NCBI GenBank assembly: GCA_945900785.1 | Contig: CAMDJM010000011.1 | Span: 1-64,000, forward strand | DNA: 64,000 bases | Reading direction: 5' to 3' | Source of the DNA: Akkermansia muciniphila | Lineage (GTDB): Bacteria; Verrucomicrobiota; Verrucomicrobiia; Verrucomicrobiales; V1-33 | Part shown: positions 48,022-50,603 of the stretch, one piece after another | Position numbering within the stretch: the first letter of the stretch is position 1 | Layout of the letters: every line of letters starts with the position of its first letter | Position numbers and translations under genes: made by a program | The notes under the pieces: generated by a model | What the model was told of the DNA's origin: nothing | Databases searched by the model: none | Seen by the model: only the letters and a program-made list of their open reading frames with translations

Positions 48022-48615
48022 ATGGCCGACGCCGTTTTGACTGATAAACAGGAGGACCGCGTGCTCGTGGAGCGTGCGCAGGAGGGCGACTGCCCGGCCT
48101 TCGATACCCTCGTGGTCAAATACAGCCAGCGCCTTTACGCGCTGATCTACCACATGACCAGCCATCGGGAGGACACGAATGACCTCCTTCAGGAAGTCTT
48201 CGCCCGGGCCTTCCGGAATCTGAAGAGCTTCCGCGGGCAAAGCGGCTTTTACACCTGGATTTACACCATCGCGGTGAATCTCACTCTGAATTTCCTCAAA
48301 AAGCGCAACCGCCGCCGCATGCTCAGCCTGGACGACGTGGACAGCGGCGTGCAAAATGACGGGGAATTCCTCGAACTCACCGCCAGCAGCGACCCCGTGC
48401 GCGAGGCCGGCCTGAATGAACTTCAAAAGCATTTGAACGAAGCGCTCCAGAAACTGTCCGATGATCATAGAGCCGTGGTCACCCTCTTCGACATTCAAGG
48501 CATGCCCCACGCCGAAATCAGCAAGATCCTCGGGGTCAGCGAAGGCACCGTCCGCAGCCGCCTTCACTATGCGCACAAACAACTGCAAGCCCACCTTTCC
48601 AACTACCTCTCCTGA
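48022..48615 (+). CDS. ECF RNA polymerase sigma factor (RpoE-like)
   Basis: A 197-aa protein from the ATG at 48022. Region 2: FDTLVVKYSQRLYALIYHMTSHREDTNDLLQEVFARAFRNLKSFRGQSGFYTWIYTIAVNLTLNFLKKRNR. Region 4: LNEALQKLSDDHRAVVTLFDIQGMPHAEISKILGVSEGTVRSRLHYAHKQLQ. It is closer to the RpoE group than the sigma at 5054. It is followed after 89 bp by a gene for a small membrane protein, possibly its regulator. Confidence 0.9.
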   Translation: MADAVLTDKQEDRVLVERAQEGDCPAFDTLVVKYSQRLYALIYHMTSHREDTNDLLQEVFARAFRNLKSFRGQSGFYTWIYTIAVNLTLNFLKKRNRRRMLSLDDVDSGVQNDGEFLELTASSDPVREAGLNELQKHLNEALQKLSDDHRAVVTLFDIQGMPHAEISKILGVSEGTVRSRLHYAHKQLQAHLSNYLS

Positions 48616-48704
48616 ACCCCGATCCCCCCGAATGCGGGCATTTCCGTTGCTGGATTTCCCTTTCCCTGATCCCTTTCCCTGATTTTCATTTCCAATCTTT
48701 CCTC

Positions 48705-49187
48705 ATGAACAAGGACGAACAACTGGCGCGCCTGCTCCGACTGAAGCGGCATGAAAAACCTGACGAAGCCTACTTCGAAGGGTTTCTCGGGCAATTCCAC
48801 GACTACCAGCGCAAAGCGATAGCAACGCAAAGTGCCGCTGCCCTCTTTTGGGAGCGGGTCTGCACCATGGTGACCGCCCTGCGGCGTCCCTCCACTGCCT
48901 GGGCTGCAGCTGGGGCCTACGCTGCCATCATGCTCCTGATCTATGCCTGGCCCGCCCCGGATCACGCGGTCAAAACCACCTTGGTCATTTCCAACCAGGG
49001 CCCCATGGTCCAGCCCGGTCCTGGCAACCCGGCTCCCCCCGCCCCGGGCGATGCCCCCTCATGGCAAGCTACCGTGCCCGCCGGTCAAACCATAACCGTC
49101 AGCGATGGCCCGGCTTTGCAGCCGCCTGCCTCCGGCAAGCGCCGCACCATTGACCAGCCCGCAGAAAGGGAAGGCCCTAAAAATTGA
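48705..49187 (+). CDS. Single-pass membrane protein, candidate anti-sigma partner
   Basis: A 160-aa protein. The N-terminal 70 residues are cytoplasmic and charged (NKDEQLARLLRLKRHEKPDEAYFEGFLGQFHDYQRK), then one membrane helix at about 65-80 (AWAAAGAYAAIMLLIYAW). A proline-rich extracytoplasmic tail follows. Position after an ECF sigma gene and topology suggest an anti-sigma factor, though no zinc motif is present. The KPDEAYFEGF segment recurs in verrucomicrobial small membrane proteins by my recollection, which cannot be checked here. Confidence 0.6.
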   Translation: MNKDEQLARLLRLKRHEKPDEAYFEGFLGQFHDYQRKAIATQSAAALFWERVCTMVTALRRPSTAWAAAGAYAAIMLLIYAWPAPDHAVKTTLVISNQGPMVQPGPGNPAPPAPGDAPSWQATVPAGQTITVSDGPALQPPASGKRRTIDQPAEREGPKN

Positions 49188-49305
49188 GCGTTGGAACCTG
49201 GAAAAAGACTCCGCCCTTCGGGCGAAAGCCAGCAAATGCCCGGGCGCGGCGCGGTTTTTTTACAAGCCGTCCCGGCAGCTCCCCCTGATTCCCGGCTCTG
49301 ATTAG

Positions 49306-49398
49306 TTCTACTTTGTTAAGTTCCCCGTGGCGCAGGCTTCCAGCCTGTGCGGCCAGCGGGCTTCCAGCCCGCTGATTCCCCAACTTAACAAAGTAGAA
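49306..49398. mobile_element. 93-bp MITE with perfect 17-bp inverted ends and TTAG target duplication
   Basis: 49306-49322 (TTCTACTTTGTTAAGTT) and 49382-49398 are exact reverse complements. TTAG lies immediately outside both ends (49302-49305 and 49399-49402), consistent with a 4-bp target duplication. Inside are two hairpins: CAGGCT-TCC-AGCCTG (49333-49347) and AGCGGGCT-TCC-AGCCCGCT (49355-49373). There is no coding capacity, so it would need a transposase in trans. Confidence 0.85.
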
Positions 49399-49478
49399 TT
49401 AGCCCCCATTTCCACCGCCCCGCTTCCGGCCTCCGTTGACACCCGTCCGGACGCGGCCTAATTCGGGACTTGGCCACT

Positions 49479-50333
49479 ATGTTAAAATGGATCGTCCTCA
49501 GCAGCGGCAGCGCGGGCAACAGTGCCGTGGTCTGCACCGGATCCTCACGTCTGCTGATTGATGCCGGACTCAGCGCGGCCCGCTTGCTGGAACGCCTGCA
49601 CGCCATCGGCGTCGCCCCGGATTCCCTCTCGGGGATTTTCATCACCCACGAGCATGGCGATCATTGCAAAGGGCTGGATATCCTGACTAAAAAGCATCCC
49701 CTGCCCATTCTCTGCAACGCCCGCACCCGCGAGGTCCTGCGGGATTCCATCAAAGCTGAAAAACACTGGCAGCTCATCCCGGGAGCCGGTGCGTTTGAAT
49801 TTGCCGGGCTGCAAATCGAGACCTTTTCCGTTCCCCACGACGCTGCAGACCCCGTCGGCTTGGTCCTGCGTCATGGGGACAGCGCTTTGGGGGTCGTGAG
49901 TGATGCCGGCCACACGACCGCCATGATGCGCCAGAAGCTGCGCGATTTGGATACGTTATTTATTGAGGCGAACTACGATACCGGATTGCTCAGCAGCGAC
50001 ATCAGGCGCCCATGGTCCACCAAACAACGCATCCAGGGCAGACACGGCCATCTTTCCAACGAACAGGCGGCGGCCTTTATCACGGAGGTGCTCTCCCCCC
50101 GTCTGGAAAGAATCGTGCTCGGGCATCTGAGTCAGGACTGCAACTCCCCTGACTTGGCCACTTCGACGGTTCAATCCGCCCTTCTGCGGGCACAGCGGCC
50201 GGATGTTCATGTCAGTTGCGCCGCCCCCCACGGGCCGACCCCTTGGTTCCCGGTCCGTCTCCACCGCCCGGAACCCGTCCGTCCGGCCTTGCTGTCAGGC
50301 CATTCCGGATGGCATCAAATGGATCTGTTGTGA
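49479..50333 (+). CDS. MBL-fold metallohydrolase (YycJ/WalJ-like)
   Basis: A 284-aa protein from the ATG at 49479. Metal-site motifs of the metallo-beta-lactamase fold: LLIDAGLSAARLLERL, then ITHEHGDHCKGLDIL (HxHxDH type, here HEHGDH), FSVPHDAADPVGLVL, VVSDAGHTT, FIEANYD and IVLGHLSQDCNSP. This set is typical of YycJ/WalJ, a single-strand DNA exonuclease-like protein tied to cell-wall or DNA-repair processes. The C-terminal 40 residues are atypical and basic and may be an extension or read-out into low-quality sequence. Confidence 0.85.
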   Translation: MLKWIVLSSGSAGNSAVVCTGSSRLLIDAGLSAARLLERLHAIGVAPDSLSGIFITHEHGDHCKGLDILTKKHPLPILCNARTREVLRDSIKAEKHWQLIPGAGAFEFAGLQIETFSVPHDAADPVGLVLRHGDSALGVVSDAGHTTAMMRQKLRDLDTLFIEANYDTGLLSSDIRRPWSTKQRIQGRHGHLSNEQAAAFITEVLSPRLERIVLGHLSQDCNSPDLATSTVQSALLRAQRPDVHVSCAAPHGPTPWFPVRLHRPEPVRPALLSGHSGWHQMDLL

Positions 50334-50420
50334 TTCCAAAAAAGGAGTGAAATGGAAAGCGGCCGGGTTTGGGATTCCTTTAAAATGCTGGTGGCTTTTT
50401 CGCGGGGAATCCATGGCACT

Positions 50421-50603
50421 TCATGCCAAGGTGTGTGAAACTATGAACGCCATCCCAGCCTTCCCCAGCGCGTGCCCCCGCGCCAAATCAGGAGCCACCT
50501 GCAGCCTCAGCCGGTCACACAGCTCCAGAGGCACCATCCGCGTCTCCACCTCATGAAACCCATCCGACCGCCGCCTTAGCGCCCTCAGCCACAGATTTGA
50601 CCT
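50421..50603 (-). pseudogene. ispE fragment (4-diphosphocytidyl-methylerythritol kinase N-terminus)
   Basis: On the minus strand one frame reads NLWLRALRRRSDGFHEVETR, then MVPLELCDRLRLQ, matching the IspE N-terminus (the KINLxLxVLGRRxDGFHExET pattern). A stop lies just upstream of the homology, so no start remains. The frame continues only to 50421, without the ATP-binding PxGAGLGGG loop. It is about 45 recognisable codons of a gene that normally has about 280. Confidence 0.75.

Follow-up and report, generated by a model that had tools for sequence, protein, structure and literature searches.

Anatomy of the element and its surroundings

The window, the whole 64-kb stretch of DNA analyzed here, contains a 93-bp noncoding element situated between the end of a separate gene and the likely promoter of the next gene, which encodes a metallo-beta-lactamase-fold protein (Table 1). 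The element is short, has TIRs, and carries no gene, as expected of a MITE. In order, it is made up of a TIR (17 bp), CCCC, a 48-bp double hairpin beginning with GTGG, ATTCCCC, and a second TIR (17 bp). The perfect 17-bp ends and the outer TTAG direct repeat given in a preliminary description of this DNA were exact to the base. The TIR arms pair at 17 of 17 positions, and the arms called automatically reach 20 nt at 95% by taking in some flank. No further TIR match was found in the window at ≤3 mismatches (0.01 expected).

TABLE 1 Window coordinates of the element, its parts, and neighboring features
Feature	Position	Strand or type	Basis
MITE (whole element), 93 bp	49306-49398	noncoding	Sequence
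Left target site duplication, TTAG	49302..49305	.	Sequence; compare exact 4-bp duplications in 19/28 whole copies
Left TIR, TTCTACTTTGTTAAGTT	49306..49322	+	Sequence; fixed positions of IS701 end consensus all fit
Spacer, CCCC	49323..49326	.	Sequence
REP doublet, 48 bp, 5′ GTGG	49327..49374	+	Same as unit of stand-alone REPs and inverted arms of carB REPtron
Hairpin 1, GCGCAGGCT-TCC-AGCCTGTGC	49330..49350	+	Inverted-repeat search, RNA and DNA folds
Hairpin 2, CAGCGGGCT-TCC-AGCCCGCTG	49354..49374	+	Inverted-repeat search, RNA and DNA folds
Spacer, ATTCCCC	49375..49381	.	Sequence
Right TIR, perfect complement of left TIR	49382..49398	-	Inverted-repeat and TIR match searches
Right target site duplication, TTAG	49399..49402	.	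Sequence
Context: likely promoter of next gene (TTGACA, 17-nt spacer, TAATTC)	49436..49464	+	Read by eye; absent from consensus-scan list
Context: metallo-beta-lactamase-fold gene, downstream of element	49479..50333	+	ORF list, domain search

Both hairpins and the lack of coding capacity, likewise noted in the preliminary description, were confirmed. The hairpins have in common the core GGCTTCCAGCC, which occurs twice in 64 kb (0.11 expected), while their outer stems are unlike (GCGCAGGCT/AGCCTGTGC versus CAGCGGGCT/AGCCCGCTG). A 68-amino-acid minus-strand frame runs across the element by chance, with no sign of coding. The predicted fold of the element strand, two hairpins on a 17-bp stem, has a free energy of -55.6 kcal/mol as RNA (z = -9.9 versus shuffles) and -32.5 as DNA (z = -9.0 versus shuffles). 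An Rfam scan of positions 48500 to 50500 returned nothing relevant.

The window copy ends about 37 bp upstream of the TTGACA -35 box at 49436, and TTGACA with equal spacing is also present in two related genomes, G002 (same genus) and G003. In G002, the upstream gene is different and the element is absent, and the region from CATTTCC through TTGACA to the metallo-beta-lactamase-fold gene is alike. Comparison with related genomes yielded no alignable empty site for this copy. Its position upstream of a conserved promoter suggests that it is probably not transcribed together with the downstream gene, and it is probably neutral.

A recent multicopy burst with 4-bp duplications and an empty site

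Copies of the element were collected by searching its own genome (G000; 5.08 Mb in 172 contigs, 86% complete). About 31 near-full copies were found, along with additional partial copies. The consensus of 28 whole copies is 93 bp long, the same as the window copy, and these copies have a mean identity of 97.3% to the consensus and 94.7% to one another. Exact 4-bp duplications flank 19 of the 28 (TTAA, 9; TTAG, 5; CTAA, 3; TTAT, 1; ATAA, 1); the other 9 differ at one base (3 copies) or two (6 copies). YTAR accounts for 42 of the 56 flanking 4-mers. Among 37 related genomes, including its own, the whole element was found in its own genome only; G002 has the core and lacks the whole element. The burst is thus recent and probably confined to this species.

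On contig C43, a copy (L014) sits within an ECF-type sigma-factor gene, which is split into two frames because the element plus its duplication amounts to 97 bp. When the flanks were rejoined by a single CTAA, the frame became continuous and aligned without a gap at the junction (GRFRTFL/IASLNHFL) to 9 of 9 related loci compared; this empty site is one site, examined at the protein level. Given the copy number, the 19 exact duplications, the empty site inside a gene, and transposons with matching ends (see below), we classify the element as a MITE, and the earlier call of a MITE with a TTAG duplication holds, as do the genome-wide copy count and the empty-site check proposed with it.

The TIRs vary at 47 of 952 sites (4.9%) and the core at 15 of 1,344 (1.1%; P = 5e-8; copies L001 to L029). 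A core less variable than the TIRs is unusual for a MITE, although the difference is not significant for private changes alone (P = 0.08). Variants shared among copies lie at inner TIR positions 13 to 15 and 79 to 81. Since these shared variants drive the difference, we did not use low core variation as an argument for selection.

The ends of the element are of the IS701 family

IS701 family members have ends of the form ---YACT-Y--YR, produce 4-bp duplications, and are 1,400 to 1,550 bp long (PMC2266710). TTCTACTTTGTTA agrees with this consensus at all fixed positions, and the flanking duplications are likewise 4 bp. Near-identical ends were found on complete IS701 elements in related genomes of the same order. 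One (L118) is 1,523 bp long, with ends TTCTACTTAGTTAAA, TTAA duplications, and a protein that matched NF033540 (7.6e-91) and DDE_5 (2e-55) in profile searches; the other (L155) is about 1,503 bp long, with ends TTCTACATTGTTAAGTT and TTAA. An IS701-like element of 1,496 bp on a Methylococcaceae contig (L252) has TTCTACTTTGTTAAATT at both ends and flanks of TTAG and TTAA. TTAR followed by the TIR, with A or G as the 15th base, gave exact matches in several phyla. On this evidence, we assign the ends of the element to the IS701 family. The IS5 group, which also targets YTAR, was considered as the parent family and dropped when the transposases of the related genomes proved to be IS701 (NF033540 and DDE_5).

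The element's own genome contains two multicopy IS701-like elements with ends TTCTACTGTGTTAT and TTCTGCTTTGGTAA, mostly next to YTAR and 2 mismatches from the TIR of the element. Only the ends of these elements are visible, because multicopy elements break the assembly. Breaks of this kind were seen at the ends of contigs C5, C8, C16, C17, C28, C32, C34, C45, C57, C70, C76, C85, C93, C98, C123, C132, and C138, each showing about 120 to 150 bp of one IS701-like end. On C85, one IS701-like element is inserted into TTAA inside a MITE-type TIR. A Pfam DDE_5 search of this genome gave no match, as only the C-terminal ends of IS701 genes survive at the contig ends; the 51-amino-acid C terminus had no match in a plasmid search. 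The preliminary description had proposed, as a check, finding a transposase gene with matching 17-bp ends. Such ends, near identical, occur on IS701 elements in relatives and distant phyla, but a search of the element's own genome, for which the assembly has a completeness of 86% and is interrupted at IS copies, revealed no IS701 element that was both complete and bounded by exactly these 17-bp ends.

In three other genomes (G048, G093, and G110), MITEs of about 310 to 330 bp with the TIR TTCTACTTTGGTAAGTTATC and YTAR-type duplications were observed (L160, L164, L166, L167, L172, L176, and L178). They contain no transposase frame, and we assign them to a second family of IS701-type MITEs within the order.

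The interior is a REP doublet that also occurs without TIRs

A search of the element's own genome gave 138 matches to the core GGCTTCCAGCC and 0 to a reversed control pattern, and the core outnumbered the control in the majority of 57 related genomes. Doublets outside the MITE agree with those within it in their 24-bp spacing and in their limits (GTGGCGC...CCGCTG, 48 bp). Some are solitary, and others are part of a longer arrangement that includes an inverted copy at a distance of about 58 bp; decayed TIRs of the CTCTACTTTGTCA type are present in some of these longer arrangements. GTGG precedes hairpin 1 in the place of the 5′ tetranucleotide of REPs, and hairpin 2 has no tag of its own. GTGG is a reported variant of the GTAG-type REP tetranucleotide (PMC3733652). 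On contig C20, a RAYT gene is framed by the doublet in inverted orientation, as arms with 35 and 18 matched nt, and the same arrangement is found in G002. The preliminary description had suggested a REP-like role, which proved apt more literally than first meant: a RAYT gene has this very core as its flanking REP. Elsewhere in the tested genomes, RAYT loci had different palindromes or none of this kind, and the REP family appears to be specific to this RAYT, which lies in carB.

In the element's own genome, the stand-alone doublets mostly read CAGTGGG and the MITE copies CAGCGGG, which argues that the former do not derive from the recent burst. G002 has both the REP and the RAYT without the TIR, suggesting that the MITE captured an existing REP and not the reverse. 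The 48-bp double hairpin exists without TIRs elsewhere in its own genome and in relatives, which points to capture as a unit and speaks against the earlier proposal that the hairpins arose by internal duplication.

Four loci of the element's own genome (L272, L273, L185, and L271) hold elements whose TIRs approximate CTCTACTTTGTCA and whose interior combines the same REP doublet with an inverted REP and, at the center, a GGCCTTCCAGGCC hairpin; their ends are often decayed. Judged by these features, they are a second, older IS701-type MITE with the same REP cargo. Within the 93-bp element, TTCCCC flanks the REP core as a direct repeat at 49321 to 49326 (the last two TIR bases plus CCCC) and 49376 to 49381, as though a tiny palindrome had received the hairpin unit; the pair is perhaps a trace of REP entry.

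The associated RAYT lies in frame inside carB

The RAYT is inserted in frame in a loop of the CarB oligomerization domain, giving a protein of 1,346 amino acids in G000 and 1,368 amino acids in G002; in eight other relatives, the same loop is short. The carB-RAYT loci with their inverted REP flanks are L289:17-4057 (-) on contig C20 of G000 and L292:1133-5239 (+) on contig C43 of G002. The carB RAYT matched NF047646 at 1.5e-16, under the curated cutoff, and the profile of the TnpA_REP structure 4er8 at 1.9e-7. HuH and tyrosine motifs are invariant among seven RAYT examples, and the catalytic motifs are intact. Between G000 and G002, dN/dS was 0.03 to 0.05 for CarB, 0.07 for the RAYT domain, and 0.45 to 0.67 for the linkers that hold the REPs. 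The value for the RAYT domain indicates that selection has kept its sequence within CarB, and we conclude from these ratios that the domain is under purifying selection.

RAYT domains were also seen in frame in leuS and alaS of the element's own genome, in ispG of G056, and in a DUF5107-TPR gene of G020, and a diverged RAYT occupies the same CarB loop in G006. These are the five further RAYT loci (L290:507-3752 [+], L291:1156-4773 [-], L320:1155-3761 [-], L318:375-4514 [+], and L322:1370-5395 [+]).

Origin of the element and alternative explanations

With IS701 ends, multicopy spread, YTAR-type 4-bp duplications, and a clean empty site observed for the element, and with the doublet found both in TIR-free form and on either side of a RAYT gene in inverted orientation, we consider it highly probable that the element is a nonautonomous IS701-type MITE whose interior is the captured REP doublet of a RAYT system in the same genome. 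A founder would have formed when a REP came between two IS701 ends, and amplification of this single founder would then have brought the copy number in this species to about 31. An IS701-family DDE transposase would act in trans on the 17-bp ends, and the 93-bp unit would be excised and inserted into 4-bp YTAR sites. The interior would be a captured REP doublet with no remnant of a transposase gene, the REP being carried as passenger DNA.

The tie between the core and a RAYT would also suit a REP/BIME cluster spread by the RAYT, with the TIRs merely the outer stems of the repeat. However, the mobile unit ends at the TIR tips, which adjoin the 4-bp duplications, and it is established that RAYT/IS200-type transposition makes no target duplications. 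REPs occur without TIRs, TIRs occur on complete IS701 elements, and the empty site in the sigma-factor gene has neither the TIRs nor the core; we regard this explanation as most improbable. The element might instead be a classical internal-deletion MITE, with the hairpins duplicated inside it and the stand-alone REPs seeded later by end loss, and old decayed MITEs with a REP core and degenerate TIRs do exist. Such an origin is unlikely in view of G002, which has doublets, including two that flank the carB RAYT, and no TIRs, and in view of the difference between the CAGTGGG of most stand-alone doublets and the CAGCGGG of the MITE copies.

A function as an RNA processing, attenuation, or mRNA-stabilizing site would agree with the very stable fold (z = -9.9) and with a core somewhat more conserved than the TIRs, but recent spread matches that conservation, and another copy disrupts the sigma-factor gene. 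The window copy itself follows the end of a separate gene and stands upstream of a promoter kept in G002 and G003, a position that makes RNA processing there unlikely. Overall, we find it quite unlikely that the element acts as such a site.

An extension of the preferred reading, REP capture by an IS701-type MITE, is put forward tentatively, and we hold it to be possible but doubtful. The element may be doubly mobile, with an IS701 transposase moving the whole as double-stranded DNA and the REP core still serving as a substrate of the CarB-domain RAYT nuclease. RAYTs of this bacterial group would have repeatedly entered essential genes in frame, and the MITE would have spread REP targets. If this is true, RAYTs in essential genes (carB, leuS, alaS, and ispG) would be unlosable.

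Relation to known mobile elements

MITEs are usually viewed as shrunken copies of the transposon they come from. In this case, the element carries as cargo a repeat from an unrelated system of single-strand transposition, such that one mobile DNA spreads the target sites of another. This would provide a second route, besides RAYT, for the multiplication of REPs, a question not yet settled in the REP field, and RAYT domains kept by selection in essential enzymes bear on the persistence of domesticated RAYT genes. The kind of element is known, and its novelty lies in joining IS701 ends to a REP cargo. Among the open-access full texts searched, we found no IS701-derived MITE, REP-carrying MITE, or in-gene RAYT.

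With the IS701 family (DDE transposase; PF13546/NF033540), the element shares the end consensus, the 4-bp duplication, YTAR-like targets, and near-identical TIRs, but it has no transposase, is 93 bp long rather than 1.4 to 1.55 kb, and has an interior unrelated to the IS. Like bacterial MITEs of the RUP, NEMIS, ERIC, and Nezha type (PMC3733652), it is noncoding and multicopy, with TIRs, a target duplication, and a stable fold; unlike them, it has as its interior the REP doublet of an unrelated tyrosine-transposase system. GTGG palindromes, inverted copies flanking a RAYT, and high copy number are features of the REP/BIME/REPIN systems with their RAYT (TnpA_REP; PMC3733652, PMC6006769, and PMC8266576), whereas here the REP is borne by IS701 ends and the RAYT lies in frame inside carB and is not a separate gene.

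Rickettsia palindromic elements (RPE; PMC3733652) are similar in that palindromes are tolerated inside genes; here, by contrast, the inserted sequence can amount to an entire RAYT domain that selection maintains. A REP doublet inside a gene was observed in G030, where the 48-bp unit (16 codons) lies in frame in a thiC-like open reading frame, named by reading its sequence, on the minus strand near position 1500 of L063.
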